A stretch of 64,000 bases of DNA from Eucommia ulmoides (Eukaryota > Streptophyta > Magnoliopsida > Garryales > Eucommiaceae): positions 61,001-125,000 of the forward strand of contig JAENRU010000468.1 of NCBI GenBank assembly GCA_016647705.1. The letters are read 5' to 3'. The position numbers and the translations under genes were made by a program. Within the stretch, counting starts at the first letter, position 1. Each line of letters opens with the position of its first letter. Under the pieces are notes generated by a model. That model was not told the origin of the DNA. It was given only the letters and a program-made list of their open reading frames with translations, and made no database searches. Below, piece by piece: positions 3,405 to 64,000 of the stretch.

Positions 3405-4277
3405 GTTGACTGCAATCCCTTCCAAACTAACAACATAGCCAAGAAACACAACTTTGTCAAAGCAAAAGGAACATTTCTCTAAATTTGCATATAATTTTTC
3501 TTTTCTCAAAACATCAAACACACAATGCAAATGATCAATATGCTCATCTAAGCTCTTACTATACACCAAAATATCTTCAAAATAGACCACAACAAACTTG
3601 CCTATAAACGCATGCAATGCATGATTCATTAACCTCATGAATGTACTTGGTGCATTAGTTAGCCCAAAAGGCATTACCAACCACTCATACAATCCATATT
3701 TAGTTTTAAAGGCAGTTTCCCATTTATCGCCTTCTTTCATCCTAATTTGGTGATACCCACTTTTCAAATCAATTTTAGTGAAAATACATGACCCATGCAA
3801 CTCATCTAACATGTCATCTAGCCTAGGAATGGGATGTCGATACTTTACCGTAATGTTGTTAATAGCTCGGCAATCAACACACATACGCCAAGTTCCATCC
3901 TTCTTAGGCACAAGTAGTACCCGTACTGCGCACGGACTCATGCTCTCTCTTACGTGTCCCTTGGCTAACAACTCTTCCACTTGCCTTTGAAGTTCTTTTG
4001 TCTCCTCTGGATTACTCCTATAGGCTGGTCGGTTAGGAAATGTTGCACCCGGCACAAAGTCAATTTGATGCTTAATGCCTCGAATAGGTGGCAATCTACT
4101 AGGTACATCGTTAGGGAACACGTCCTCAAATTCCTGCAACAAAGAAACAACAACACTAGGCAAAGATCGGTCAAATTCGTTAGCACTAAAACATGCCTCT
4201 TTGTACAATAGTACAAATATAGGCCGGTTTGCATACAAAGCACCCTTGATATCACTCGCCTTAGCATAAAATCTCAC
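3402..4277 (-). pseudogene. Ty3/gypsy reverse transcriptase, truncated and catalytically altered
   Basis: The 291-residue open frame is a plant gypsy RT N-terminal two thirds. In order it shows RLPPIRGIKHQIDFVPGA near the start, NRPAYRSNPEETKELQ, LLVPKKDGTWRMCVDCRAIN, HPIPRLDDMLDELHG, FTKIDLKSGYHQIRM and MPFGLTNAPSTFMRLM. The catalytic box reads YFEDILVYS instead of the usual Y-x-D-D, so one metal-binding aspartate is replaced by glutamate. The frame then runs through FLGYVVS and ends at a junction with foreign sequence. RT would copy the element RNA into DNA in a cytoplasmic particle; this copy should be inactive. The stretch 4278-4367 between this frame and the upstream one is lysine-rich when translated and is interrupted by a stop. 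Confidence 0.85.
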
Positions 4278-4367
4278 TTGTTTCTCTATTTTTCTCTCAT
4301 TTTTTCCACTTCTTTTTTGCTTTTCACTCTCTTTTATGTTTCTACTCTCTTTTTTCTCATCTTTTTT

Positions 4368-4940
4368 TTAACTCACGGTCTCACAAGTTTTTTTCAACTC
4401 GTTCTCTCTTTTCAATTTCATTTGATCCTCATACACTTGTTTTAGAGTCAACGGCACAAGAGTAATGATTTTATTGTCTTTGCCGAATGAGTGCCTATTC
4501 TTGAACCCGTCATGAATAACCTTCCTATCAAATTGCCATAGCCTACCCAACAATATGTGACCCGCATGCATTGGAACAACATCACAAAGTACTTCATCCT
4601 TGTACTTCCCAATCGAAAAGGAAACTAACACTTGTATATTTACTCGAACCTCCTCACAATCATTCAACCACTGCAATTTATAAGGTCTAGGGTGTTTCAA
4701 GGTATGTAAATTCAGTTTCTCTACTAAAGTAGTGTTAGCCACACTAGTGCAACTTCCCCCATCAATGATCATACTACATACCTTGTTGTTGACGTGGCAT
4801 CTAGTATGAAATATATTCTCCCTTTGCTGTTCCATGTCATCCTCTGCAACTTGGGCACTTAGAGCACGCCTTGCCACAAGTGACTCTCCCTCCACCGGGT
4901 ACTCCACATCATCATCACAAGCATCTTCAAGTTGTGGCAT
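4368..4940 (-). pseudogene. Ty3/gypsy gag C-terminus and retropepsin-like protease region
   Basis: This frame continues the gag frame directly, after one in-frame TAG. It begins with the acidic linker MPQLEDACDDDVEYPVEGE and carries a retropepsin-like segment: CSMIIDGGSCTSVANTTLV replaces the usual D-S/T-G active site with D-G-G-S. The hydrophobic ILLGRLW follows about 85 residues later, the place of the second protease motif. A basic stretch (QMKLKRENELKKTCE) ends the frame. In the relative at 28623-28910 the codon at the stop position is CAG (Gln), so one C-to-T change explains the break here. The whole protease segment is missing in that relative. Confidence 0.75.
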
Positions 4941-6125
4941 CTAGTCATCATCACTCTCACTTTCGGTTTCCACCTCTCCATCAACACGTGCAATCATGGT
5001 CCTCTTATTTGGGCATTGTGAGGCTATGTGACCTACTCCTAAACAACGAAAACATTTAATATCACGGTTACGAGTTTGGGTTTTGGTTTTACCTTTGTTG
5101 GCAATGGGAACATCATCTCTCCTTTTGGGGGGTTCGGTTTCGGACTTTGAAACAGCCCCTTCGTCCTTCCTCCTATTCAGCCTCCATGAATTAGAGGAGC
5201 TTGAATTTTGAAATGACCGAGTTTCTTTCCTTTTAAGCTGTCGTTCTACTTTTATGGCCATGTGAACCATGTCTTCCAACTCCACATAATGTTGCAACTC
5301 CACCACGTTAGCAATGTCCCGATTCAACCCATTCAAGAACCTTGTCATGGTAGCTTCTCTATCCTCCTCGACATTAGCTCGGATCATAGCGACCTCCATC
5401 TCCTTGTAGTAATCATCCACGCTCCGATAGCCTTGCGTAAGGCTTTGTAATTTCTGATACAAGTCCCTATAGTAGTGACTAGGGACAAACCGCCTCCTCA
5501 TGATGGCCTTTATTTCCGCCCACGTCACGATAGGCCTCTCATGGTTCTTTCTCCTGTTTATCACAAGTTGATCCCACCATATTATAGCATAGTCAATAAA
5601 CTCAATCACAGAGGGTTTTACCTTTTTCTCCTCGGAGTAGTTATGGCACTCAAAGATCAACTCCACCTTCTTCTCCCACTCCAAGTATGCTTCAGGATCG
5701 TTTTTCCCTTGGAATGAGGGTATCTTCACCTTGATACTTCCCAAGTTATTATCAATCTGCTCTCCATGTCTATCTCCTCTATTCCCATGTCCACTCACAA
5801 ATCTGCCCAAGCTTGCATTAGAGGCCCGATCATCTTCATCTAGGTCATCCCCATAATCATCTTCATACACGAACCAAAGCTGATTCCTCTCTCTTCGTTG
5901 CACATTAGAAGCTCTCGGTGGCTGCCCCTTTTGTGCGCTAGACTCAACTTTGTCAAGCCGCTCATGCACTTCATCAAACCGCAAGTTCAACTGTTGAAAC
6001 TTTTGCTCCAAGGCCTTGTATAAAACTTTTGTGTCCATTATGTCCATCCTTTCATGTGCTTCATTGGAAGAGCCTTTATTTGTTTCTCGAGACATGTTTA
6101 GTAACCTACAAAACAAAGTTAGCAA
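4941..6125 (-). pseudogene. Ty3/gypsy Gag with CCHC zinc knuckle
   Basis: The 394-residue frame is a plant gypsy Gag. A coiled-coil-prone N-terminus (EQKFQQLNLRFDEVHERLDK) is followed by an acidic segment and then the conserved core IPSFQGKNDPEAYLEWEKKV with ECHNYSEEKKVK and WWDQLVINRRK. The C-terminal part has the single zinc knuckle CFRCLGVGHIASQCPNKR (C-x2-C-x4-H-x4-C). The frame ends at the TAG that separates it from the protease region. Gag would form the particle that packages element RNA. The start may be an internal methionine a few codons later (MSRETNKGSSNEA, near 6094), which matches the start in the copy at 29109-29984. Confidence 0.85.
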
Positions 6126-29108: not shown

Positions 29109-29984
29109 TTATTCCACTTTTATTGCCATGTGCACCATGTCCTTCAACTCCACATAATGTTGCAACTCCACCATGTTGGCAATCTCCCAATTTAGCCCAT
29201 TCAAGAACATTGTCATTGTAGCTTCTCTATCTTCCTCGACATTAACCTGGATCATAGCGATCTCCATCTCCTTGTCGTAATCATCTACGCTCCGATATCC
29301 TTGAGGAAAACTTTGTAACTTCTGGTACAAATTCCTATAGTAGTGACAAAGGATAAACCTCCTCCTCATTATGGCCTTCATTTCCGCCCACGTCTCGATA
29401 GGCCTCTCATGGTTTCTCCTTCTATTTATTACAAGTTGATCCCACCATATTATAGCATAATCAACAAATTCAATTACAGCGAGTTTTACCTTTTTATGCT
29501 CGGAATAGTTGTGGCACTCAAAGATCAATTCCACCTTCTTCTCCCATTCTAAGTACGCTTTAAGGTCGTTCTTCCCTTGGAACGATGGAATCTTCATCTT
29601 GATGTTTCCCAAGTTTTTATCGATCCACTCCCTATACCTATCTCCTCTATTCCTATATTCATGCCTGAATCTGCTCAAACTCACATTAAAGGCGCGATCT
29701 TCTTCCTCTACATCATCCCAATCATCAAATTCATATTCATACCGAGGCAGTTTTCTCTCTCGTCGTTGTACATTAAGAACTTTAGGTGGTTGCCCCATTT
29801 GTAAATTAGACTCGACTTTGTCTAGTCGCTCATGCATTTCATCAAATTGCGAGTTCAATCGTTCAAACTCTTGCTCCAAGGCTTTGTAGAAAACTTTGAT
29901 GTCCATCCTTTGCGATGCTTCATTAGACGAGCCTTTGTTTGTTTCTTGAGACATGCTTAATAACCTGCAAAACAAAGTTAGCAA
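29109..29984 (-). pseudogene. Gag of element D, N-terminal part
   Basis: The 291-residue frame matches the Gag at 4941-6125: MSQETNKGSSNEASQRMD near the start, a coiled coil, IPSFQGKNDLKAYLEWEKKV, and ECHNYSEHKKVKLAVIEF. It ends at a stop in the region QLKRK/N-RTQ that in the relative continues to the zinc knuckle (29108-28911 here holds that continuation in broken frames). A functional particle protein is unlikely. Confidence 0.85.
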
Positions 29985-46001: not shown

Positions 46002-46059
46002 ATGCCATCGTTTCCAAGACCAGGCTTAGTCACAATTTGTGAAATCAATCGAGAACTTT
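46002..46059 (+). CDS. ALADIN: ALADIN exon 1
   Basis: Encodes MPSFPRPGLVTICEINREL plus one base. The ATG is the first in a good context (gaaaatgcc) after the CT-rich leader. Donor gtatgt at 46060. Confidence 0.9.
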
Positions 46060-49000
46060 GTATGTTACCTATTCTCTCTCCCACTTATAGCAATATCTTC
46101 TTTATCCTAGCATTCAATTCTCTGTTTAATTGCCCGCAGTCACTGCCGAGAACATATCCGACGATCGAGCAAAAGAAGCTTACGGAGAAATACTTGTAAT
46201 TTGTTTTTTCATCAATTTATGTGTATGTTTATATATGTCTCGAGATATTTTTTAATATTTTCCTGCAATTCTACTGGGTAATTTAAGGGCACTGTATTCA
46301 GTCCGGTTCCGTTTAAGCAACTGACTCCGAGTTCTGAGCAAGGCACGGAAGAGCAAGAAACAATATTAGACTCTGTTGGAAAGAAGGGTTTATCGGCACT
46401 GCAGGCAATCTTTACTGGTTCTCTCCTATCGTTTTTTCGTCCAAATGATGTATGGTTTTCTAATTTTCCATGTTCCCCTTCATCTTCACTTGTAATTTGT
46501 CCAAATTCACCATATTGCTGGGATAGAGTCCTGCTTATTTACTTTAAACTAGTTATTATGTATTGTCAGCATTTGTTATGTGAGCAATCTTCTGAATGAG
46601 ACTGTGGTGATAATTTGTCTAAGCTTTCCAACTATGAGTCTAGGACACTGTTCGAATCTACCTAATTGAATAGTGGAATCTTGTGATGATTTTTTCTCTC
46701 ATGTAACAGTTCAGTATTTAGGTTCTTAGAAACATTACTTTGTACCTTAATTTTGGTTGACTTGGAAAATTTCCCACATATCAATGATCCTCCTCATCTT
46801 TCTTCAAGATCGGTGGGCGGTTATCACATATCACAAGAAGAAAACAAGCTAGACTTGGTGTGATTGATTTTCTATGCCAACATATAACATAAATGGTTAA
46901 GAATAGTGATACTGTTATCTCAAAATTACTGTGCACTTTAGAAGACAAGATTAACAATAATAAGAAAGACTTGCAAGAGTATATTTTCTATTAGCGCACA
47001 AGAAAAATAACGAGTTAGTATTGTCGGATAGAACTTGAAACTAAGTATTGGAATCTAAATGTTGTATTTTAAATGTTGAAAGTGTTAAAGTCACCGAAAA
47101 CCAATTTAAAACTATTTGGTTATGCACACAAAGTTAAGCAATGAATCTAATCATGTTATTTAAATTTGATAAATAGAATTACTAAGTACAAATCACAATA
47201 TTACAATAAGAAAGCAAGTTAGACTTGGAGTGATTAATTATTTTATGCGCAAACATATCAGACTAATGATTAAGCATATTGATAATATTATCGCAAAATT
47301 ACTCTAGAAAACACGATTAATAAATAACAAGCAATACAACAAGGTTATATAGTTTAGCAATGCAAAAGAAGAATAACATGAGTAAGGTGTTTTTGGATAA
47401 AACTTGAAACTAAATATTGGAATTTGAATGTTGAATTTTAAATGCTGAAAGTGTTAAGTCATCGGAAACAAATTGAAAACTATTTGGTTATGCACGGAAA
47501 TTTGTGCATTGAATCTAATCATGTTATTTGAATTTGACAAATAGAAATATTAAGGACAAAACATTTTCAATTTGCCAATTAGATGCTTTAATACTTGCAT
47601 TTGAAATACCATCTTCAAGGTCGGTGGGGATATCGCATATCACAATAAGAAAACAAATTCGACTTGGTTTGATTAATCTTTTGCACAAACATATGATTAA
47701 TCATATTGATAATATTATCGCAAAATTACCATAGAAAACACGATTAATAAATAACAAACAATACGGCAAGGTTATATAGTTTGCAATGCAGGAGAAGAAT
47801 AACGTGTTAGATGTTGTTGTATGAACTAAATGGGCTTTCAATTTCAAAGCTTATCTTTACTAATCACTCAAATTGAAAATGGTAACCTTCTTTGGAGAGT
47901 TGCACCAAAATTTACATCAGCATCTTTAGTTGAATCAGTCATACCATCTAATGGCACTGGTCCAAGCAAATGTTCTTTAAATTGAACATAAACAAGAATA
48001 TATTGTATACTTGACTGAGCAACTTAGTTCTTTTTTTTTTTTTTTTTTTGTAGATGCAAACAACTATTAATGAGAAGAAAGTGGGGACAGTGAATAAAAT
48101 AAAATAAATTAAATTAAAAGAAGAAAAGCACAAATGACATATTGGGTGCGAGATAACCTAATCGGCCTTATTCTGCATTAAATTCTAATCGACCTTATCT
48201 TGCCTTAAGTTCTCAATTTCAACTATTTTAGCAAATTCTACCCAATGTTTGAAGGTACTCAAATCGAATTACCTTTTCCATCCTTCATGTTAATTGCTAC
48301 TCAATTGTGTGTTTCCTCCATTTGTTATATGCAACCCAACTTCTTTGTGTAAGCCTATAGAGGCTTGAACTTCCAACCTAAATTCATGTGACTAAATTAA
48401 AATAAGAGAAACTAAATCAAAAATGGAAATCATGATTGAAATAATGGGCACTATGAGGGGATAACCTGATCGGCCTTACCCTACCTTTAAAGTTCTTTGG
48501 GTGGCGTTTGGTAACCATTTCTATTCCCATCCCATACAGTGGGATGAGAATAGGATAGGATGAGAATTTTGTTTCCTTCTTGGGAGTAGAATCGCGTTTG
48601 GTAATGATAATTTTTTTTTGTTTTGGGAATAGAATCGCGTTTGGTAACGATTTTATCCTAAAATCAATTTTTTTTTTTTTTGTTTTGAGAACATTTTTTT
48701 TTTGTTTTGGCTGGACGGTGGCGGCGGCAGTTGGGCGGTGACCGATGGGTGGCTGACGGTGGCATCCGGCGCCAGAAGTTGCCGGATAGTGGCATTCGGC
48801 GCCAGAAGTTGCCGGACGGCGGATGAACAGTGGCGGTGGCCCTCTTTAATTTTTGGGAATGGGATGGGAATAATGAAAAACAATTTTTTTTTGTTTCTCA
48901 TTTCTTAAGAAAAAAGTTGGCACAATTATCAAATAGGAATGGAATGGGAACGGGAAAAAAAATTACCAAACACTATTCCCAAACAGAAATCCCAAAAATC

Positions 49001-52000
49001 TGGGAATGGGATGGAAATTTCTGGGATGGAAACGGTTACCAAACGGGGCCTTAGGAGTCTAAGCGCAAGGCGCAAGGTGAGACGCATGCCTGAGTGAAGT
49101 GTGGAGCACACTATATGGGACAAGTAATATATTTCTTGATATTATTTATTATTAATAAAGATATTTCTATCCTTAATTTAATTATATAGTATTTAGAGTT
49201 ATAAATTATAATACAATCAATTATATCTCTAAGGAACCACACAATATTACAAATATTAGAATCATTTAATATCTTCAATAATCAAAAGATCCAAGAGGTT
49301 AAATCCATCCAAAGATTTCAAAAGACACGCTTCAAGTGCTAAAGAGAAATCAAAAAGATCAAAAAATCTATATAAACATGTTAATGTGTTTGATTTTGTA
49401 ATTAAAAAGGCATGCTTCAATATTTTGTAATTAAAAAATGTATTTGAACTTGGGACCTTATTTTTGGTAACTTGGTATGCGTTAGGTATTATCCAACTCA
49501 TTTGTGTCAAAAAGTGGTATAATGAAAATAAATGCAATATATAGAACAACTTCAATCATGCACACCTTTCTTGAGCCTTGTGCCAAGGCTTCTATGGTGC
49601 GCGCCTTGTGGGACGAGCCTCGCCTAAGACTAGTAAGGTCAAGGGGTGAGCCTTTGTGCTCTTGGAGCCTAGGCACACCTTTGACAACTATGTCTCAATC
49701 TCACAATTTTTTCCCAATGTACGTATGTACTCAAAGCGAGCTACCTTTTACATCCTTTATGTTAATTGCTACTCAATAATGCATGTCATTGGTGTGCTAA
49801 AAGGGGTACCATCCGCAACTTCTTTGCGTAAGCTTATTGGTGCATGAACTTCCAAACTAAATTCATATAGCTACTACCTTTCGCTAGTAAATTTGGGAAG
49901 TCCTATTAAACTGAATGGGACTTAAAATTCAACCTCACTTGCAATCCGGGCTAGTATGTGAAGCGACTAAACAAAGATTAGAGGGCCTAAGATGGCCAGA
50001 TTATTCGGGGAGAAATGGAGGTTTTCCAAAATCTAGCTATTATATTGTCTTAGTAATCATCCTAATGAGAATAAGTGAAGTAGCCCCTTGAACTTCTATG
50101 TTAGTTTTGGAGACTCCATAAACTGACATAGGAATTAAGACCCAACCTCTGTTGCAACTCTAGTTCGCACGTGGAGTAATTGAAGAAAGATAAAAAGAAA
50201 GGATAGAATAGATGTCAAAGATGGTCATACTACTTGGAAAGAGACAAGTGAGGCTTCCCAATGCCATATCTGATATAACTTATAAGCTAAGGAGAAGCCA
50301 ACCTTTACCTTTGGGAGTCAAATGAAAACAATTAGGGGCCCCATAAGTTTAGGAGTTGGTCACTAAGATACAATAATATGTCATGAACATCTTATCTGTT
50401 TAGATGTGCTAAAATACACCCCTGGAGCATTTGTCGAGGAAAGTGAAGTGTTTTTTCTTATTTTTATTCTTGGCAACACACTAACAAGATTTAACTCGTC
50501 TCCTTGATATTAATATTTTGTAGGTAAAACTATTACCTGAGGTTGATCTTCATCGCTTGAGTTGGCACCAACATAAGCCTATTTTAGCATTTATTTTTGG
50601 TTCAGATCATGTTATGGTTCGTGATTATGCAGATTCAGGTCTCTCATTTTTTTTCCCATTTGGTAGAACAGTCCATCTTTTCTCTTTTGCACTTGCTTCT
50701 ATAACTTGATATCACTAATCATTTAATGGAAGTCTTTTTAAGTGACACATTTTATCTTTGAAGCGAGCCCTTATATTTTTCTTGTATTAGAAGGAGAAGA
50801 TCAATGCATTTTGACACATGAGTCCCAAAGAGACGTTACACTTCTGGAATGGAGGCCAAATGGCGGGAAGACACTTTCCGTGGCGTGCAAGTTTGTATCA
50901 TGATATTTTGTTAAACCCTTGGTGTAGGCTTAGTATCAGTTATGGTACTACAACTACCTACCTAATTTTGATGGCGAATATTTATCATTTCATGGATTAA
51001 ACAGGGGTGGAATTTGTATATGGGCTGCTTCTTTTCCTGGAAATACGGTATTAATCAGATGTGGGGTTACTTCAAGCACCCTAGCAAGGGGTTCAACAAG
51101 TCGATGGACTCTTGTTGATTTTCTTCGAAGTCATGATGATGAACAAATTACTGCACTTTCTTGGAGTCCTGATGGAAGATATCCTACATAGCTTTCCTAT
51201 ATTTTTTGTGATAATTATTAATTTAGGATATGGTGAAGGCAAGCCTTAGCGCAACGGTAAATGTTGTCGCCATGTGACTTGGAGGTCACGGGTTCAAGTC
51301 GTGGAAACAACCTCTTGTAAAAAGTAAGGTAACGTTGCTTACAATAGACCTAAGTGGTCCGACCCTTTCCAGGACCCCGTGCATAGCGGGACCTTTGTAG
51401 CACTGGGCTGCTCTTTTTTTATTTATTCATTTAGGATATGGTCATTTGTATTGGTCTCTCACTCTTTCACACCTATGATCCACTCTAACATTTGTTTTCT
51501 TTCTTTCTTGTGCATTTAGTGGTCTTTCCTTATATGCCTTGTATGGTACTACTCTTTTTATATGAACTGTGGGAGATGACCATGTAACTTCCTTGCTCTG
51601 TGTATGAAATATGAATATGTTCTGTTGTTTCGGCAAATTTAAGTAGTTGTAGATATTCTCTATGTTTCAGTATAATGCTTCAATTTATTTTTCGGTTGGA
51701 AGAAATCAGCCGCTCTTGATACTGTAGTTATTTGAGCAATTTCGGCCACTGGTTTCTGAAGTTTTGGGTGATTCCATTTTTGTCTCTAAATTTCTACTTG
51801 TCTATATTTATCCCTAAAATTTTTGTATTTTTCTATCTGCGTCTATCTAACAATATCCATCCATAAATCAATTGAAGAATGGGAAAGCAAAAGGAATGTA
51901 ACACGCTTAATACTTCCAATGGTTAATACTTCCAATGCCTTTTTTTCTCTACCCTCCCTCCCCCGCTTGTCCTATTTGCAAACACGTAAGAAATTGGACT

Positions 52001-54453
52001 TGTTATGACAATATTCAAATCAAATTAAGAGATATAGTTCAATGAAGGCACAAATGAAATCACCATTACACTTCACTTACCAGTTGTGTATTTTATAGTG
52101 TAGCATTTCTGACAGATAAACTGGAAATAGTTTTACTTAGCAAAGAAAGAAAATATTCTTAACTCTTCCTCACATATCTGGCATCCGCTTCGTACGAGAG
52201 CTCGTCATTCACCGTTTGGGATGTTTCTCAAGGTAAATCACTTTCCTATTTTACTCTTCTAATGTTATGAGCAATGCATATTTGTTTCTTATTCTCTGTA
52301 GAAGCTGATAAGGGACAAGGTTTGTTTTGCTAACTTGTTGGACGATTTTAATTAGTACTAGGATTAGTGTTTAGTGTTCATTATTTGGGCTTCCTCTTTG
52401 CCATCTGTTTTTCCTATTTGTAATTGTATATAGTGATTCGAATTAATATTTAATGTAAGGAATCTGTTTAAAAAGTAATAATAGTGATCCAAGTGCTTAA
52501 CATGATGGAAAAAGTTTCAGTTGTTTCTCCTTTCAAGATTAGGCATAAATTTTACATAATCTCTTAAAGTTTTAATCCTCTATATTCCTCAAATTTTATA
52601 CAGTTAAAATGCTTCAAAAGTTTATAAATAAAATAGATTTTTGGTGATTAGGTTGTAACTGCTACTTAATAATTCAATTCGGATAAAAAAAATATTATAA
52701 CTGCTACTTAATAATTCATTTTGGATAAAAAAAATAAATAGTAGTTGAATAAGGATGAAAAAATTGTCAGACTAAAACACCATTCTAATTAAAAAAATCA
52801 CCCATAACGCATTCACAGATTTTTGGCGATTGTATCCAAGTAAAGAGAATTTCCGAAAATTAAAAAATTTAACATCTCGGGATTCAGTAATTGATTTTTG
52901 AAAAGAGTGTATTTTTGAAGTCTAATTTTTAGTATCTTTAAAACAAAAGTAAACCAATTTCTTGTTATATTTTGACTTTTGAGTATCACCACAAGATTTT
53001 TCAGTATTTAAAAAAACGTCTATTTATAGACGTTGGGCCGTAGAAATTTTTGAGTGATATTAGGTCCTAAGAATTTCTCACTTGGAAAAGGTTTTTGGGA
53101 GAAAATGAAGAATTAAAAATAAAATAGAAGATAGATGATATTTACCAATAACAATTCTGAGAAGAATGAGTTAAAAAAAAAATCTTAAGAAATTCTCAAT
53201 AACATTGATTGAGATATTTCTCTGTGGTGCTGGACCTTGAGAATTTTACTATGATTTAAGGACCTTAAATTTTTCACCAAGATAAATAAAGAAGAACAAG
53301 TTATCTAATAGAAATATTATTCCACCTTGTGTCAAAAATATTGTGTTCAGGCATAGTAGTCAGTCACAAAAAATCACTTGCATTGTTTATGGCTGTCTTG
53401 ATTCTATATTTTTCAGATGAAAATGACACCGGATGTAGTGACTTGCATTCTTGGCAAGGTCTCGTTTCCTCCTGTACATTATGGAAATGATACAAGATGA
53501 ATGGGTTTGAACATAATCACAAAAGCCGTCAAACCCATAAGTCAATCATATGCGTATTGGTCTATTGGAATAGCTCGATTATTGATGATTCTAGAAAGTC
53601 TTTCTAATTCTCAAACGTCCTTGGCCAATGAACTTCTTAAGCTAAGCCATGTTGATATTTCTGTTTTCTGAGGATGGTGGATCCCATCTTGCGCACTCGT
53701 ATGTCTCAGTATGTAATCCACATACCCACTGAATACTGCTCAAAATCTGTGGTTTGGACATTTGGGGTCCTTTGATAGAACTGAAAATTAAGTATTGTAA
53801 ACTTACAAATATTGAATTTATGGTACTGAATTTTAAATCTTGAATTTCTTAGGTTCTGAATGTATTAAATACCTTTTTTAATTACTTCTAACCTCACAAA
53901 CTTTATCTTTGTACTATTTGGTCTCTAAAATAATCTTTACAACTTTCTCTTTTAAGATATTCTCTCCATTGTTTTTCTTAATTTTGCACTCTATCTCTAC
54001 AATTATTTGTGTAATTTGTTTTCCAAGATTTTGTAGTAATGGTGTTTAATGGTGGTTGTGATAGATGATGTTTGATGGTTTTAAATGATAAGTGCTAAAA
54101 AATGAATGATACATTACTTTAAATTTTGAAATAATGTTATCAAATGGGCCCTTAGTATATCAAAGTATAACAACGTATAATATCTATATCTATACAGTCA
54201 AACAAGAATGTTTTTTTTAAAGGCATTTTGAAGTGACTTTTTAAACCATTGGATCGATTTTAATTGGTTGAGGTTAAAATATTAATATTAGAATATTCTA
54301 AATAGATATTTTCAATTCATTATACGTGGCATGTATTTAGACCCTTAAAATTTTTCCATTCCCACTTTTTCGAGTTCTCCTTCCTCAGTCAAAGCAATAA
54401 TGAAATCCCCCAACAAAACTTACCATCCTCTCTTCCCTAAATCAGTAAAACAT

Positions 54454-54498
<45 letters not shown>

Positions 54499-54741
54499 AA
54501 TTTTCATATTTATTTCTGGAAGCGAAATTAACGAGGCTAACACCAAATAGGATGTTTATATATTTTCTAGGTTGTGTTGATTCCCTTTATGTATAGGGTG
54601 AGAAGGTGGGGTATTTGTTTTTTTTTTTTTTTTTTTTATCTTATTTCTAGCATGTTTTACTCTATTTTTTTTTTTTATATATATATATATATAGCGACAC
54701 GTGGAGAATTAAGATTAGTGCCTTTAGGTACAGGGTATTCT

Positions 54742-54802
<61 letters not shown>

Positions 54803-57800
54803 AGGCCTTCTATAGTCGGGTCAAGGATCACCTGCACTTCCACAATTTTGCATTTTGTTTGATAGGTGGTGAGCCTTAGGTACAATGGTAAGGTTGCTCC
54901 ATTGTGACCTGAAAGTCTTAGGTCCAAAACTTGGAAACGACTTGCCTCTCCGTATGCAGGGGTAAGACTACGTAAGTATGACCCTTGCAGACCCGCAATG
55001 GCGGGAGTCTTCGTGCATTGGGCTGCCTTTTAGATGGTAAAGGCCAATATAATTATCCGAGGTGGTCACATTCACTCCCTCGCTCTCTAACAATTATCCA
55101 CATAGAGGTTCTAGTGTCTCCACATGAATGGTATGAGATTTACCACGTCACTCGTGCTACATATCATACCGTGGTATCTATGGACTAGTACTGCATACTA
55201 CATATGCACAACAATGAAATTTCATAAATGATCTATCAGTTATTAAATATTTGAGATTGATTTACATAAGTATACATGAATACACTAGGTTTGTTTGAAA
55301 TGAGAATGAAAGAGATGAGAGAAATACAGAATTACTGGCAGTTTGGACAGGAGAGTGATTTTTAAAGATTGCCTCATGATGCCTGAACAAGAGAGTGATT
55401 TTTAAACATCGCCTCATGATGTTGAAATGGCATAAAGGGCCTTTTGAACAAATATTTTCTTCTCTCTTGATGCACTGTTAGGCTTCGAATGTGGTCTAAT
55501 TGAAGATCTACCCTGAATAGAACTAATATCAAACAGTGGCATATATGTACTATATATGCTTTCTTTAGATGTTGTTGGTGCATACACAGAACTTTAAGTC
55601 AAAGAAAATGTTCATTTCGTATCCTAAATTCCTAACATTTTTTTCCCAGTAAGCATGATTTGCTTTGTACGGAAAAAACAAAATACATTACAACTAACCT
55701 GTGAGTCATTGTTTGCCATAGGTAATATGATTGTACTTTTTTGTTGGGAAACATGAAGGTATGTTGATGTGTTTTATATAGTTGTTCATATGTATCAAAT
55801 GTCAACGGATAGGATACATATATCATGATGTTGATGCGTAGCACCCCCTCCACCCCCCATCCATCCACTGCGCGCACACAACAAAAAGAAAAAAAAAAGA
55901 ATCAAGAAAATTGAATCTCTACCTATCTTCTTGCGAACTGAGCCTGATATGTGTTATATTAAACTGTGTTTCTGGAAGAGGGTTTTTCATCTCTCTTTCT
56001 CAGGCTCATATATGTAGTTCTTATTTTCTAATCTCTGTTTGGTGCTTTATTGTATGTGATCTGCAGGCGTGGGAACACCTATTCGGCGGGGCTTTAGGGG
56101 CGTATCAATACTTAAATGGTCTCCTACTGGGGACTACTTTTTTGCTGCGAAGTTGTACTGTCATTTACTAGCCCTATTTAAAATGCCTTGCATGTATGAA
56201 CACATCTTAACCTGAATAATGCGTTCGATTTCTTTTACAGTGATGGATCATTTTATCTTTGGGAGACAAACACATGGACATCAGAACCATGGTCCTCGAC
56301 TAGTGGCTTTGTCACGGTTAGTCTAATGACAAATCATTCCATTGCTGATCTCTAGAGTGATGTTTTCTGGGTGTTGGGGTTATTTCTTGCTGTGGTAGCT
56401 GGGGAAACCATTTTGTTCATTTTATGCATAGCAGTGATAGTGTTTACCTCACCTAGTTTGACATCTGTAGGGATTGTTGATAGGGAATACTGATTAGGCT
56501 GTTGATGATGCACTAAATGGTGTCATGTGCATGATTTTGGAGGTTTGTGATTGTGAAAGAAGGTTCTGCTGGAATCTTTCCTGTTCAGAGTGGGTCGATA
56601 ATCTAAGAAGCACAAGATTGAATATTACATTTAACTCAAACATGGGTAGCTGGTCAGTAAATTATTTCAATGACAATGTTCAATCAACAATGCACAATCC
56701 TAATGGCTTTATAATCATCCGTATGGAAGTCTTCTAATGCCATTAAGAAAAAACCCGAGATTATAAAGATTAAGATTATAACTTGATTAATCAAATGGAT
56801 GATCTCCTAGATTTGGTTTTCCATTTTTTGGTACCATGGCATTATTGTTTGGTGGGGAACCAAAAGTCATGGATGAAAGGTTTGGATTTATGGATTAGGT
56901 AGTTTTATAATTAGGTTTAAATTTATAAATTCAGATTTATTAGTTTAATGTTCGACTTTGGAGTTAATTTGATTTCTAAGTTCAACAATTTTATGTCACC
57001 TTATTTGGAATATTTTAGGTTTAGGGTTTAAATATGTGCAGTTCTTACTTCTAACTTTAGGCTCATTGTGCTGCCTACTTTGGCGTTTCCCATTGCCCAA
57101 AACTTTCTGTTAGTTACCACTATTATCTCCCCAAATTTCTCAGGCAATTGCAAAGATTTTCTATTAACAGCTTTTTCAACACCCCCCTCCCAAAAAAAAC
57201 AAAAAAAACAAAATAAAAAAATGCATTGGTGACAAAAACTAGATAGGAAGTCAATAATCAAATTAACAATATTGGATGTTGCTCACAGAATTTGATTGGT
57301 CAGGGGTCTTGATTTTCTTGTTCTTCCACCTTATTTGGGCTGTCCTACTTCATTAGGCTTTTCGCTCTCGTTATTCTCTCGCTTTATGTAGGGATATTCC
57401 ATTTATTGATGTGATTGTAGTGAGGCAACTAAGCAGTGCATCATTTCATATCGAAAAAGAAAATGGAAGTTATAATAAACAACTGAAAATCAGAGCTAAA
57501 CTATATGGAATAGGAATAACAAAGCCATTAAATGAAAACAAGAAGAAGAACAACAAATCCTTTGTCCCACTTTAGTGGGGCCTGCTACATGAATCTACTT
57601 GTGCCATGAAGATTATTCTTGGGCTACTTTCTTGTTTAGGTTCAAAGTCATTGAATCATTTTCCAAGTTTTCTTAGATTTACCTCTCCCTCTTATAGCAC
57701 CTTCTACTCTACTTGAATTGAATCACTTTTCCTACCAGTAGCTTCTGCAGGATGCACGTCCAAACCATCATAAATTTTTAAAAAAAGTATTTCAATTGAC

Positions 57801-60647
57801 CTGGCTCTTCCATCGACAATCTACTACTCCCTCTTAGTAGCAGATGCCCATGCTTTGATTCAAAAGCCCTAGACAAGGATGAATCCCCAGGAAGATCGGA
57901 GTATAGCATTCCTCCTCCCTTCATTCAAGTTTGAACATAACATTAATGTCTTCATTCATCAATCATCAATCATTAATTCATTATGGCAACAATCTGTGCT
58001 AACTCAATTGGTGCCTTCACTGTATATGGTACATCATGCATCATTTACATCTTATCTTTTTGCTCTAACTTTTGAGGGTAGTGTTTTAGCTTTATGCAAC
58101 TTTCTGGGAAAACCCTACTTTTGAATTCTTTAGTGGTGGCAACTAGGGGCGAGGCCATGGTGGCCGCCAGTGATGGCCAGACTAGTCCCCCATCCCTTCT
58201 TCCTTTTGTCATCAAACCCTAATGCTGCAGCCCATGTTTCTTTTGAGGAAAAATCATTTGCGAATCCAGTTATTACTTCCTCATCTGTTTGCGATCTGCC
58301 CAAAACTTTTCAATCCTTTTAAGGAGAACCGTCCATTTTTCCCATGATAAGGACATTGGTGATCTTGCTTTTCTGATGAGGAGACTGGTGATCTTGCTGC
58401 CCCATTCAAATACGCCCTAGTTGGTTAGTTCTCACATGTCCGCCCTAGATTGTATGTGATTAGAAAATATTTCCACTTTCTTGGACTTATGGGTGTGTTT
58501 GAGATTGGTTTTCTGGACACTCTAAGCACCACTTGATTTAGTTGTTCCTCGAGTAGTATTTTCAGCGGTTGTGGATTAAGAATTTGTTGTATACCAAAGG
58601 ATTTCCTATGCTTACTTTTAAATGGACCACAGAGTTCAAGGCAAATGCGGAATCCTCACTTGCTCCAGGTTTGATTGAACTTGAATTCCTCTTGTTTCAC
58701 TTTGACAAGAAGAATACCCTGTTTTCTATTGCTCAAACTTTTGGCAATCCAATGGAGCTGGATGCTGCAACATTGATTTTGTGTAGGCCTAAATCAACTC
58801 AAATCTGCGTCGAGGTTGATTTATTGAAGGAATTTTGTCTCAAAGAATCTGGATTGGCTGCGTCCAAAATGGTTTTTGGTGACAGATAAAGTTTGAGGCT
58901 CTCGCAAAATATTGCATGTATGGCTACAAACAGGGGCACGACGCTATGGAAAAAATTCTTCTCTAGTTTTGGATAAAAATGGGACTGATCCAAAGCCTGA
59001 CACTATGCGTAAGGTAGATCAAGTTGCTGAGGAGGTGGTGTCTAAGAGCAAAGCGAAGGTAGATGCAGGTTTCACAGCAGTATCTAGAAGAAGGAAGCCT
59101 ACTGCGAATGCTGAAACAAAAGTTGATGGTGCTAAGCATGATGATATGAATGGAGTAGCAAGAATGATATGGTCAATGAGATGTTGCAAGAGGTAGATAA
59201 TAAAGTTCCAGAAGAAATTTGTTGTGATGATTATGTTTCCAAAGATAAATTGAAACCTTGTGGTAGTGGGGAGCCAGTTTCTGATGATAAAGACTTCGAG
59301 GGGGAAATATCAAGTGAAGAGGAAGGAGAGAGTTCTGACGGTGAGTCCAACAAAGGCACAATTGTGCAAGAAACAGATGTAGCAGAGTATTCAGGCAATT
59401 ATGGGAAGTCCAACCAGAGTAGGACGATGATGAAGTTCAAGCTAAATCTAATAAAGAGGGACTTCTTTCAAAGAAATCAAACAAGTGGAAACTCTTTCAG
59501 TTTCAGTGAAAGCTCTCCAGCTCTCACCTAGAAGAATTTCTTAATAGTCCTGAGATCTCTCTCCAGGGGTCAAGAAAGAAAAGGTAAAAAGAAACGTCAA
59601 GTTGCGGCCAAAGGGATCACTACAAGGACAAGGGGTGTTGATACTAGACTCCATGATTAACACCCTTATCTGGAATATCCGTGAGATTTCAAATTCCTCT
59701 ACTTTAAGAAGGCTTAGGAAAGTTTTGAGAATGTATGGAGTTAGGTTTTGGCAATTTAGACTCCGTTTGGTTACTGTTTCCGTTCCCTGATTTCTATTCC
59801 CGCTCCTAAATTTTTGAGATTAATGTACAAAAACACGTTTGGTAAACACCTTTCTGTTTCCAAAATTTTGGGAGTATTTCCGAATTCCTTAAGAATTTGA
59901 GAAACAAAAAAATGTTGATTCCTATTCACTCCCACATGGTGGGAAAGGAAAAGGAAAAGGAAAAGGAAACAAGAATGGTTGATTTTGAATAAGAAATGAG
60001 AGGGTAAATTTGGAATTTTTTACTTAAAAACTTGATTTGTACCAAGTTTTATGTTCGAGGGATTAATTGGTGGAGTACGACATTGAGGATCATTTTGAAA
60101 TTCACCCCTAACCAGAGGGACCTACCATGTAGTTTTCCATTTTGTTTATTGCACTCCCCCAATAAACGAAAGAAACGGGAAATGGGGGGAAGGAAAAGGA
60201 AACAAGAATCAAATATGTCAGTGGTTGATTCGGCACTGAGATAAGAGGGTAAATCTGGAATTTTAGACTTAAAAAACTTGATTTGTACCATGTTTTATGT
60301 TGGTGGCATTAATTGGGGGTGTCATTGAGGATTATTTTGAAACTCACCCCTAACTTGAGGGAACAACCGCGTAATTTTCTATTTTGTTTAATTTAGAATT
60401 AGAGAATGCATGTCTTTGTTGCCATTTCATGGTTTTTATGGGGTTCCTAATCTTGGCTTGCACCCAAAGGATGTACGTATATGTGTATTTCGCTGCAGAT
60501 TGAATCTTGATGTGGTCCTGATTACTCATAGTTTTGCTCATTATTAGGGAGCAACATGGGATCCTGATGGGCGAATGATACTCATTGCTTTCTCAGAATC
60601 ACCCGCCTTAGCTTCTATTCATTTCACATCAAGGCCACCATCTCTAG
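46002..60647 (+). CDS. ALADIN: ALADIN (AAAS-type WD40 nucleoporin), exons 1-10; 3' end outside window
   Basis: Exons: 46002-46059, 46140-46195, 46288-46449, 50524-50638, 50791-50890, 51005-51178, 52174-52232, 56067-56154, 56241-56316, 60548-60647. They join into one frame of 988 bases (329 codons) without a stop. The protein starts MPSFPRPGLVTICEINREL and contains the WD40-type segments EWRPNGGKTLSVACKGGICI, ASASYESSSFTVWDV, LKWSPTGDYFFAAKFDGSFY and TWDPDGRMILIAFSES. These match plant ALADIN, a beta-propeller scaffold protein of the nuclear pore complex. Plant homologues have roughly 450 residues, so about a quarter is missing at the C-terminus. No such exon was found up to 64000, so the gene probably continues to the right. 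Intron 6 is of AT-AC type; the others are GT-AG. No broken frame was found, so the gene is probably functional. Confidence 0.93.
46140..46195 (+). CDS. ALADIN: ALADIN exon 2
   Basis: Acceptor tgcccgcag, donor gtaatt. Encodes TAENISDDRAKEAYGEIL, the conserved segment after the N-terminal strand. The 80-base intron before it is close to the plant minimum. Confidence 0.9.
46288..46449 (+). CDS. ALADIN: ALADIN exon 3
   Basis: Acceptor gtaatttaag, donor gtatgg. Encodes 54 whole codons from GTVFSPVPFKQL to GSLLSFFRPND. The middle (EQGTEEQETILDSVGKK) is a poorly conserved acidic loop. Confidence 0.88.
46804..47805 (+). repeat. About 380-base direct repeat, two and a half copies in intron 3
   Basis: Copies lie at about 46804-47184, 47190-47562 and 47611-47805 (partial). 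Shared landmarks: tcacaa(t/g)aagaaaacaa, gacttggtgtgatt, gataatattatcgcaaaatt, aactatttggttatgcac and gaatctaatcatgttattt. The copies have diverged by perhaps 15-20 percent. They have no recognisable transposon ends and no coding frame. Confidence 0.8.
48499..49050. mobile_element. Harbinger/Tourist-like MITE (V2) in ALADIN intron 3
   Basis: The ends are gggtggcgtttggtaaccat and, complemented, ggccccgtttggtaaccgtt; the right flank is TTA and the left TTT/TTG. The GC-rich centre (48715-48845) holds two direct copies of ggcatccggcgccagaagtt with gccgga. It is the same family as 18167-18640. Confidence 0.75.
49055..49690. mobile_element. Degenerate non-autonomous DNA element in intron 3
   Basis: The left part has gcgcaaggcgcaaggtgag and the right part has ccttgtgccaaggc, gcgccttgtgggacgagcct and gcctaggcacacctttgaca. 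This pattern of inverted aaggcgcaagg/ccttgcgcctt words resembles a common plant hAT- or MULE-like repeat. Exact ends were not found. Confidence 0.35.
49691..50523. other. Remaining intron 3 sequence
   Basis: No gene or element end recognised. Ordinary AT-rich intron sequence with a T-rich stretch before the acceptor at 50523. Confidence 0.5.
50524..50638 (+). CDS. ALADIN: ALADIN exon 4
   Basis: Acceptor atattttgtag, donor gtctct. Encodes VKLLPEVDLHRLSWHQHKPI and then LAFIFGSDHVMVRDYADS, the first propeller blade. Confidence 0.92.
50791..50890 (+). CDS. ALADIN: ALADIN exon 5
   Basis: Acceptor cttgtattag, donor gtttgt. Encodes EGEDQCILTHESQRDVTLLE and WRPNGGKTLSVAC. Confidence 0.92.
51005..51178 (+). 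CDS. ALADIN: ALADIN exon 6
   Basis: Acceptor attaaacag. Encodes GGICIWAASFPGNTVLIRCG through TLVDFLRSHDDEQITALSWS to PDG-R. It ends ...gatggaag, directly before atatcct, with no GT in reach. Confidence 0.92.
51179..52173 (+). promoter_or_regulatory. U12-type AT-AC intron (ALADIN intron 6)
   Basis: The intron starts ATATCCTACA at 51179, close to the minor-spliceosome 5' site ATATCCTTT. It ends TTCCTCAC at 52173. Just before that is ttcttaact (52156-52164), close to the U12 branch site TCCTTAACT, with the branch A about 12 bases from the end. No conventional polypyrimidine tract plus AG gives an in-frame join. The AT...AC join restores the conserved G-R-Y-L-A-S-A-S-Y-E. The intron is about 1 kb and carries a SINE. 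Confidence 0.88.
51234..51428 (+). mobile_element. Au-like SINE in the U12-type intron
   Basis: It contains the tRNA-derived A box (tagcgcaacggtaaatgttg) and B box (gggttcaagtcgtgg), then the ggaccccgtgcatagcggga region and a T-rich end, as in plant Au-type SINEs. It is flanked by the perfect 13-base duplication atttaggatatgg (51221-51233 and 51429-51441). Confidence 0.92.
52174..52232 (+). CDS. ALADIN: ALADIN exon 7
   Basis: It begins atatctggcatcc after ...ttcctcac; the joined codons read G-R-Y-L-A-S-A-S-Y-E-S-S-S-F-T-V-W-D-V-S-Q. Donor gtaaat. Confidence 0.92.
52233..54456. other. Intron 7, left part
   Basis: AT-rich. A short direct duplication (aactgctacttaataattca) occurs at about 52658 and 52697. 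No gene or transposon end recognised. Confidence 0.5.
54457..54499 (+). repeat. (CT)n(CA)n microsatellite in intron 7
   Basis: A CT run of about 17 bases passes into a CA run of about 26 bases. Confidence 0.9.
54677..54797 (+). repeat. (AT)n microsatellites in intron 7
   Basis: Two AT runs (54677-54694 and 54746-54797). Confidence 0.9.
54866..55032 (+). mobile_element. Second, diverged SINE, intron 7
   Basis: It shows ggtgagccttaggtacaatg (A-box region), a decayed B box ggtccaaaacttggaaac, then gacccgcaatggcgggag and cattgggctgcctttt. It is related to the SINE at 51234 by order of blocks. A target duplication was not found. Confidence 0.7.
55033..56066. other. Intron 7, right part
   Basis: Includes a short direct repeat of 'gagagtgatttttaaa(g/c)at' with 'gcctcatgat' (55351 and 55390). 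No gene recognised. Confidence 0.5.
56067..56154 (+). CDS. ALADIN: ALADIN exon 8
   Basis: Acceptor gatctgcag. Encodes GVGTPIRRGFRGVSILKWSP and TGDYFFAAKF. Two GT sites are near; the donor gtactg at 56155 keeps the conserved A-A-K-F-D-G, while the one at 56152 would not. Confidence 0.9.
56241..56316 (+). CDS. ALADIN: ALADIN exon 9
   Basis: Acceptor tcttttacag, donor gttagt. Encodes DGSFYLWETNTWTSEPWSST and SGFVT. Confidence 0.93.
56317..57849. other. Intron 9, left part
   Basis: AT-rich intron sequence. At about 57540-57620 the words aagaagaagaacaacaaatc, tcccactttagtgggg and gctacatgaatc resemble the tail found at the 3' end of some plant retroposons. No full element was made out. Confidence 0.4.
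57850..59757 (+). pseudogene. LINE remnant: ORF1 and start of the endonuclease
   Basis: Between 58569 and 58889 a frame reads IAQTFGNPMELDAATLILCR and ICVEVDLLKEF, the pattern of the DUF4283-type N-terminal domain of plant LINE ORF1 proteins. A serine/acid-rich part follows in shifted frames (58912-59531). At 59653 a frame begins MINTLIWNIREISNSSTLRR, like the first strand of a LINE endonuclease (N-x-x-x-W-N-x-R-G). The copy is cut off there by a MITE-like sequence at 59759. It lies in ALADIN intron 9, same strand as the gene. Confidence 0.7.
59759..60010. mobile_element. Harbinger-like MITE fragment in intron 9
   Basis: It starts gactccgtttggttactgtt after TTA and has the same layout as V1 to V3 (a second 'acacgtttggtaaac' block at 59838). 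The mirrored right end was not found, so its border is estimated. Confidence 0.45.
60011..60547. other. Intron 9, right end
   Basis: A block of about 150 bases is duplicated: 'cttgatttgtaccaagttttatg' with 'attaattgg' and 'cattttgaaa' at 60031-60110, and again at 60280-60370. No gene. Confidence 0.5.
60548..60647 (+). CDS. ALADIN: ALADIN exon 10
   Basis: Acceptor gctcattattag, donor gtatgg. Encodes GATWDPDGRMILIAFSESPA and LASIHFTSRPPSL plus one base of the next codon. Confidence 0.92.
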
Positions 60648-61033
60648 GTATGGGAAAAAAAATTCCTGATTTCCTCTCATGTTTTGGCTTGCTGTTCTGC
60701 TTGACTTTGTGGTTGGCATTAGAAGTTTTTTTGCATAACTGTGTGCTTCAAGTTCGAAGCTTGGGATGTGCATGCTTGTGTGCACTTTACTGCTCTGAGA
60801 GTGTGCTGCTGTGCATGACTAATGGTGTATTTCACCTACGAATGGAATGTACAACACTGTCAACACCTCTTTCCTTAAACAATAATTTCTATTATTTTAA
60901 TATAAATCAGAAATTGCATTTATGAATCTTTTTGTAGATTTGACTGTCTAAGGGTATAGTGGTATACAAGTTAAAATGATTCTAGTTTTGAAGTATTTAA
61001 ATGTTTAATGAAAGACAAAATAAGCTTTGGTTT
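60648..61033. other. Start of intron 10
   Basis: Follows the donor gtatgg. A chance frame runs from exon 10 into this region. No element recognised. Confidence 0.5.
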
Positions 61034-63080
61034 TGTTAAAGGGTATTTTTTTCATGCCTAGTATTTATGTTTTCTGTCTTGTTTTCTTATTTCTATTATA
61101 AATAGAGGGAATAGAGGGAGGGGTTGACACATTAATCAAGCCTGTCACATTCTTTTACTCATTGTTCTTCAACATGGTATCAAGAGCAGGTTCGAATGGG
61201 TAACTAATCCCAATAAATCTGTTCTATATACGTAATCTTTTCTTTTCTTTTCTTTCTCTTCAATTTTCTTTCCCACCCTTTAAACCCCCTGCCGCTGCTC
61301 TCTACAGTACAAGCCAAATTCTAGGCCAAACCACCATCAATCGCAGCTGTTGAAGCATAGATCTTGCACCCGGCCACTAGATCTTGTACAGCGGACCCTC
61401 GTAGCCACCAAATCTCCTACTGTCGACCTCCCTAGACACCGGCACCGACTCAAACCCAGATCCGCCTTCGCCATCGCAAATCAGACCTCTGCCGCCACTA
61501 TTCTGACCAAATCTTGCTTCGCCGCCTCCATCTAAGACCTTCATTGCCACTGTTTAGCTCTTTGTTGGCGTCTTTCGGACTTGCCCAGATCTGATGGATG
61601 GTGCCTCCGGAAACACACGCTAAGTTCCCCCTGTTTTGGTTTTCTCCTTTGCCTTTTGTTATTATTATTATTATTATTGTCTCCTCCTTTTCTTTTTGAT
61701 TATTTTGTTATTTTTTAAAAAAAAAAAGAGACACACACATAGAGTGAAAAAAAAAAAAAAACACTAAAAAAATGTTAAATGCCCACCTAAGCTATATCAT
61801 TTCATTGTGCTTGTTTGTTTCCCTTGTCAATAAAAGTTTTGTCAAAGTTTTAGTTATTTTGGGTGTGGAGTTCTCCGTGTATTGTCTCATACATTTCGCA
61901 GGACACTAATGTTGACGGTTTCACCACAACGACCCAAAGTTAACTAGGACCAACTATATGGTCCAAGGTTGTGAACGTAGCCCTTACAGGACAAGGGAAA
62001 CACCAACATCTCACGAAATTTGTCGCGACACAAGATGAGAAGTAGTATGAGGAGTGGATTCAAGTTGATGCGCAAATTGTATCAACGTTGTGAAATTCGA
62101 TGAAGCCTCAAGTTGCTTATATGTGTACTTATTTGGATACGTGCAAAGCAATATGTAAATATTTTCATGTGTTGTATTGCAATAATCTTATCTGGATGTA
62201 TGACTTATCGGTCAAGTATTTTCAGCTCTAGCTAGCCACACAATCTGTTATGGATTATTTTGCCACGTTCAATAAGCTTCATGAGGAGTTAAATATTGTT
62301 TTACCTATTACTACCGATATGAAAGAAATGCACAAGTAATGTGAGCAAATGGCCATCATGAAATTCTTAGCCGGATTACCCCCAGAATCTAAGCCAATGC
62401 GATCTCAAATCCTCGCCAATGCAAATTTTCCCTTTATCACTGAAATCTATTCACGAGTTTGCGTAGCACTAACAGGGCAAGTATTTCTAGAAATCGTTCA
62501 TCTGCATCGTCTAAGTGGTCGTCCCTCCCATTGTGGCCGTGGTGGTGGCTCTCGGGGTGGAGCAGTGGTCATGGTCGTAGTTGACATTGTCAATGCTCTT
62601 TCTGCAGTTAAGAAAATCATACCAAAGAAACTTCTTGGACTCAGTTGGTTGTCTACCTAAATTCGCCAATGCAGTGACTTCTAATCCAAATGATCTTGCT
62701 TCAATTCGAAAGTCTCAGGTGACCAAAGGCATCGCTAATGAGGAATATGCCCAATTCATTCAATATAAGGCATCTCAACAGGCATCTCTCCCCATTGCTT
62801 CTTTAGCTTAACAAGGTACTTTTACCGCTTATATTTCTATTCGCCCTTCCCCTCTTATAACCTGGGTCATAGATTCTGCTGCCATTGATCACATGTCAAG
62901 TACATCTTCCCTATAAACACATTTAGTCCTCTCTTTCGTTGTCTCTTGATACTGTTCTTGATGGTTCCATAGTCCCTGTTTGTGGCATCGACACCGTGGA
63001 ACCCTCACCACCCTCCTCTCTGTGTTCTGTCTTTTATATTCGTTTATTTTCTTTTAATTTTATGTCTTCAGTAAGCTTAC
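61034..63080 (+). mobile_element. Copia element remnant with a short 5' LTR, in intron 10
   Basis: A 141-base LTR (61034-61174) runs from TGTTAAAGGG to TTCAACA and has a TATA box (tattataaatag, 61095). Tggtatcaagagcagg follows as primer binding site (61175-61190, initiator Met type). Gag and the protease start lie at 61940-63080. The element is cut at 63081 by a MITE; no 3' LTR is in view. Confidence 0.8.
61940..63080 (+). pseudogene. Copia Gag and start of protease, many stops
   Basis: Segments in more than one frame read KFVATQDE, QLATQSVMDYFATFNKLHEE, LNIVLPITTDMKEMHK, a stop, then CEQMAIMKFLAGLPPESKPM and RSQILANANFPFITEIYSRV. This is the UBN2-type Gag of Ty1/copia elements. A glycine-rich segment follows where the zinc knuckle should be. 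Then comes TWVIDSAAIDHMSS, the copia protease site with D-S-A in place of D-S-G. At least one stop (62338) and several frameshifts make it non-functional. Confidence 0.75.
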
Positions 63081-63083
63081 TAA

Positions 63084-64000
63084 GGTGGCGTTTGTTTAGT
63101 GTTCCCACTTTTCTCAACCCAACTGGGATGGGTTGGGTTGAGAATTCTGTTTCCTACTGGAAATAGAATTGTATTTGGTAACGACAATTTTTTTTTTTGT
63201 GCTAGGAATAAAATCACGTTTGGTAACGATATCATCGTAGAATTATTTCCTCACAATATTTTTTTTTTTTTTAATTTCTTTTTTTTTTTTCTTTTTCTTA
63301 TTTTCTCTTCCTTCGTTGAACAACCTAGTTTGGTTACCGATTACCAATTACCGATTTCGATTTCATGGTTTCGATTTCGATTTCATGGTTTGGTTACCGA
63401 TTTCGTTCATGAAATGGAAATCGTTGTTCGTTCACGAATCGAACAATCGAAATTTCATGGTTTGGTTACCGATTTCATGGTTTGGTTTGGTTTGGTTCAT
63501 GAACGAACAATTTCGATTTGGTTTCGATTTCGTGAACGAACAATCGATTTCATGAACGAAATCGAAATCGGTAACCAAACCAAAATCAAGAACCAAAATC
63601 AATAACCAAATCAAAACCCTAATCAGTAACCAAATTGAAACCCTGATCAGTAACCAAATCAAACCAAAATCAAGAAACAAAATTAGAAAGAGGAAATCGA
63701 CATTGATTTCGAAATCGAAAGCAACGAAGACAACGTCGACCACAGGACGATGACGATCGAAACCTTAAATGGCAAGAACGATGACGATGGCGAGGACGAC
63801 AACAGCAACGAGTTTGGTGAAGACGATGGCGAGGAGTAGGAGGACGACGACGATTGTGAGGAGGAACGAGCGGTGAAGACGATTGCGAAGAGGAGGAACG
63901 AGCGGTGAATGAAAGAATTCAGCGATTTCGAGGAAGACGATGGCGATGTCGACGGAGATGAGGAGGTGGACGGCGAAGACGTTGGAGATTATAGCGAGAA
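63084..64000. mobile_element. Harbinger/Tourist-like element (V3), left part, with atypical centre
   Basis: It starts ggtggcgtttgtttagtgtt after TAA and follows V1 closely for about 170 bases. From 63330 the centre differs completely: repeats of ggttaccgatttc and atttcatggtttgg, also inverted (gaaatcggtaaccaaacc), then from 63690 a GA-rich part. The GA-rich part would translate as acidic protein (aspartate/glutamate runs) with a stop. The right end lies beyond the window. Confidence 0.55.

Follow-up and report, generated by a model that had tools for sequence, protein, structure and literature searches.

Intron 6 of the ALADIN gene of Eucommia ulmoides is probably a U12-type AT-AC intron that is removed by the minor spliceosome, a reading to which we give a probability of roughly 0.92 on the strength of its sequence. 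The gene lies on the forward strand of contig JAENRU010000468.1 (assembly GCA_016647705.1), in the 64,000-nucleotide stretch analysed here, which covers bases 61001-125000 of that contig. This stretch is called the window, and its numbering is used throughout. An initial annotation of the window had proposed such an intron in ALADIN, and the identity of the gene, the exon join, the 5′ splice site, the core of the branch site and the U6atac and U12 genes of the same genome agree with that proposal. The intron and its signals are located as follows.

51179..52173, + strand: putative U12-type AT-AC intron (intron 6), 995 bases, phase 2, 64% A+T
51179..51187, + strand: 5′ splice site ATATCCTAC, 7 of 9 positions identical to ATATCCTTT, with mismatches at +8 and +9
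52155..52163, + strand: branch-site-like sequence ATTCTTAAC, 7 of 9 positions identical to TTCCTTRAY, its second A (52162) lying 11 bases before the intron end
52172..52173, + strand: AC 3′ splice site, placed by the sequence and the coding join

The ALADIN gene at the end of the contig

The gene model and protein matches place ten exons in the window.

46002..46059, + strand: exon 1, with the start codon
46140..46195, + strand: exon 2
46288..46449, + strand: exon 3
50524..50638, + strand: exon 4
50791..50890, + strand: exon 5
51005..51178, + strand: exon 6, upstream of intron 6
52174..52232, + strand: exon 7, downstream of intron 6 and followed by a GT donor
56067..56154, + strand: exon 8
56241..56316, + strand: exon 9
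60548..60647, + strand: exon 10, the last found before the contig end

All ten exons (46002-60647) are open and in phase, and they encode 329 residues. The whole of this query aligns with residues 1-334 of the 447-residue Aladin in chain 4 of PDB entry 9sob (E = 6.6e-141); further structure matches include the 'Aaas-prov protein' of 7wkk (5.7e-23) and the 'Aladin' of 7r5j (2e-21), among many WD-repeat proteins. The best Pfam model, PF25460 (Beta-prop_Aladin), was matched over profile positions 20-226 of 340 with a score of 144.7 bits, which is below the gathering cut-off of 171.1 because the contig end cuts the gene off. The gene is partial after exon 10 (60648-64000) because the contig stops at the window end. 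The two ends coincide at base 125000 of the contig, a round number that hints at an assembly break.

A protein search of the assembly (947 Mb in 391 contigs) detected one ALADIN gene: seven of its 11 rows are exons in the window, and the other four are weak matches of 28-33% identity elsewhere. Searches for ALADIN homologues gave 37 pattern matches in other genome contigs and four in viral contigs, none of which was confirmed in either set, and exon 6, the one exon compared with plasmids, had no match there. The Arabidopsis ALADIN gene is given as At3g56900 in the methods of PMC4734701, while a figure legend of that paper prints another number. Among open-licence papers, we found none that ties ALADIN to U12-type introns, and a literature search joining AAAS, triple A syndrome, splice site and intron 8 returned no paper.

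Outside the gene, three minus-strand open frames at 3402-6125 resemble, by eye, the pol/gag sequence of gypsy-type retrotransposons, and a gag-like frame at 29109-29984 is related to that in 3402-6125.

The coding join and the ends of intron 6

The intron opens with ATATCCTACA from 51179 and closes with TATTCTTAACTCTTCCTCAC up to 52173, its terminal bases being CTCTTCCTCAC. Joining 51178 to 52174 keeps the frame in phase 2 and gives ...SWSPDGR/YLASASYESSSFTVWDV..., the intron falling within the AGA codon for residue 222. Across this exon 6/7 join the protein aligns with 9sob without a gap (SWSPDGRYLASASYESSSFTVWDV versus SWSPCGRYLASASYDSSSFTIWDV). Thus, the AT start, the branch-like site and the CAC end described in the initial annotation are present, with the branch A 11 bases before the end, and the in-frame join that had been said to restore a conserved segment is borne out by the ungapped alignment with ALADIN of 9sob.

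Because ATATC opens both intron 6 and exon 7, the same mRNA can be obtained from six registers of the intron. Enumerating every join between donors at 51100-51259 and acceptors at 52100-52239, we obtained AT-AC, TA-CA, AT-AT, TC-TA, CC-AT and CT-TC as the terminal dinucleotides of these equivalent registers. None of the six is GT-AG or GC-AG, and one is AT-AC, namely that proposed initially. Therefore, the protein alone cannot fix the ends of intron 6, and it is the U12 signals that do so; given the equivalence of the six registers, the terminal dinucleotides are set by the logic of the intron class.

A different kind of explanation is that the gene model is wrong and the AT-AC join only apparent, being produced by a GT-AG intron, by a cryptic exon or by the decay of a gene copy. 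In its favour, the gene stands at the contig end and is cut after exon 10, and 11 GT/GC-AG joins between donors at 51060-51319 and acceptors at 52050-52232 hold the frame without a stop. Each of the 11, however, leaves the coding sequence 15 to 177 bases shorter and thus drops at least five residues from a stretch that is conserved in 9sob; moreover, an open frame runs in phase through all ten exons, and the assembly search revealed no second ALADIN. We therefore rejected a GT/GC-AG join at intron 6, as none in the enumerated range restores the peptide. Within that range the earlier statement that no GT-AG alternative restores the conserved segment stands, all 11 joins losing at least 15 bases. 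An error in the gene model is, in our estimation, the least probable of the explanations for the join.

U12-type signals and the minor spliceosome RNAs

The U12 consensus sequences used here are those of PMC2426677, PMC5932401 and PMC2846911, as printed in these papers. The first seven bases of intron 6 match the consensus ATATCCTT(T) exactly, and positions +8 and +9 deviate from it. This ATATCCT occurs at seven of the 12574 AT dinucleotides on both strands of the window. The branch consensus TTCCTTRAY (TCCTTAAC) is placed 10-15 bases upstream of the junction in PMC2426677 and PMC5932401. A CTTRAC core, which was picked after the sequence had been seen, precedes 61 of the 6563 AC ends on both strands of the window with its A at a distance of 8-24 bases; at least seven matches to the nine positions of TTCCTTRAY are found at 626 of the same 6563 ends and are thus not rare. 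By our own arithmetic, the frequencies of ATATCCT and CTTRAC, if treated as independent, combine to about 5 in a million per AT/AC pair. Between the branch site and the end of intron 6 lies a run of nine pyrimidines (CTCTTCCTC), and one criterion for U12-type introns is that a polypyrimidine tract is lacking.

The other eight of the nine ALADIN introns are GT-AG introns, and none of these eight has ATCC at +3 to +6. Two of them also match TTCCTTRAY at seven or more of nine positions, namely intron 3 (8) and intron 5 (7). Intron 3 (46450-50523, 4074 bases, GT-AG) carries a U12-like branch sequence, CTCCTTGAT, matching 8 of 9 positions and lying 16 bases before its end. We rejected it as a U12-type intron, since its donor, GTATGGTTT, lacks CC; its branch-like sequence is possibly a chance match or a mark of a converted intron.

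The genome of E. ulmoides encodes RNA components of the minor spliceosome. U6atac was found with 86.8 bits (Rfam cut-off 33), together with three weaker copies that are also above the cut-off, and U12 snRNA with 91.6 bits (cut-off 53); neither search matched any of 14 control genomes. The search for U4atac matched nowhere, neither in this genome nor in the controls, and an Rfam scan of the window gave no matches at gathering scores.

In the pairing of these RNAs with intron 6, the AGGA of the genome's U6atac meets UCCU of the intron start in four pairs (-4.5 kcal/mol), compared with six pairs (-6.3) for the consensus; there are only four because +8 and +9 of intron 6 differ from the consensus. 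The genome's U12, with GAGUAAGGAA, can pair with UUCUU-A-ACUC with one A bulged, and the energy of this branch pairing is -8.2 versus -12.8 for the consensus. Pairing at least as good as that of intron 6 is available at 432 of 6563 AC ends for U12 and at 1334 of 12574 AT starts for U6atac. Among the GT-AG introns of ALADIN, U12 pairs more strongly than with intron 6 in introns 2 (-8.4) and 9 (-11.5), and U6atac does so in intron 4 (-10.3). We therefore discarded the energy of pairing with U6atac and U12 of this genome as a test of intron class, as it does not discriminate intron 6 from background. The class call relies on two points: ATATCCT stands without a mismatch at the join that the protein requires, and no GT-AG or GC-AG join in the enumerated range can take its place.

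U12-type 5′ splice sites are read by U11 and then by U6atac, and in the proposed removal of intron 6 the two would read its ATATCCT start in this order. Base pairing of U12 with TTCTTAAC would leave the branch A bulged, after which the AC end 11 bases downstream of this A would be joined to give SPDGR/YLAS. We infer that the minor spliceosome uses the intron 6 site in the living organism.

Intron 6 could instead be an AT-AC intron of the U2 type, the ends of which are the same. Such introns do occur, and one has been described in an Arabidopsis GFP reporter (PMC6283158); in addition, the +8 and +9 bases and the branch pairing of intron 6 are below the U12 consensus. However, the reporter intron, as that paper describes it, was called most likely U2-spliced because it is without U12-type 5′ and branch signals, whereas intron 6 has both ATATCCT and CTTAAC. 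We regard a U2-type intron as very improbable, if somewhat less so than an error in the gene model.

The U12-type reading adds intron 6 to a class that is well documented in plants. Intron 4 of CBP20, for example, is an AT-AC U12 intron that is reported to range from 76 to 2733 bases across ten plant species (PMC5932401). Intron 6 resembles this intron, as described there, in its AT-AC ends, its U12-type branch site and its length of 995 bases, which is within the CBP20 range. It differs in belonging to another gene, in departing from the consensus at +8, +9 and two branch positions, and in containing a short interspersed element (SINE). According to the figures of one classifier given in PMC7367187, Arabidopsis has 26% AT-AC introns among its U12 introns, soybean 23%, rice 22% and maize 13%, and another account cited in PMC5932401 puts the share at 4.8%. 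Since AT-AC introns of the U12 type are well established as a class in plants, the occurrence of a further member in ALADIN is not surprising.

A SINE in intron 6 and the outcome of retention

Three further features lie inside intron 6.

51189..51191, + strand: in-frame TAG met when intron 6 is retained; the protein would end ...PDGRYPT
51221..51234, + strand: left copy of the putative SINE target-site duplication, an exact 14-base repeat whose second copy is at 51429-51442
about 51235..51428, + strand: tRNA-derived SINE, recognised from genome repeat matches and flanking repeats

We read the exact 14-base flanking repeats, which form part of a longer repeat (23 bases, 91% identity), as a target-site duplication. 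A genome search, in which 40 of 1146 candidates were scored, gave at least 40 further matches to the SINE at 83-90% identity, all of them within 51214-51429 and one just 53 bases long, so that the copy count is a lower bound. The element is presumably Au-like. Without the SINE and one copy of the repeat, intron 6 would have 787 bases. Two other repeat-like stretches were seen by eye in neighbouring introns of the gene: one at 54865-55035 in intron 7, with a similar tRNA-like start and a 'gggctgcc' end, which looks like a second SINE, and one at 58620-59640 in intron 9, which resembles the coding sequence of a LINE-type retroelement and contains an open frame at 59169-59531.

Retention of intron 6 is predicted to add YPT and to meet a stop within four codons of the intron, so that ALADIN would be truncated after 225 residues. 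Au SINEs in wheat introns have been proposed, in the account of PMC5787218, to induce intron retention. Intron 6 might likewise tie the output of ALADIN to the activity of the minor spliceosome, with the SINE and the sub-consensus U12 signals raising retention and making the ALADIN level tunable, although we consider this unlikely.

The finding provides one more well-supported AT-AC U12 intron, in this case in a nuclear-pore gene. Gene finders that require GT-AG ends would mis-join intron 6 and drop residues of a conserved propeller blade. If retention of the intron were appreciable, the composition of the nuclear pore would be linked to minor splicing in a plant.
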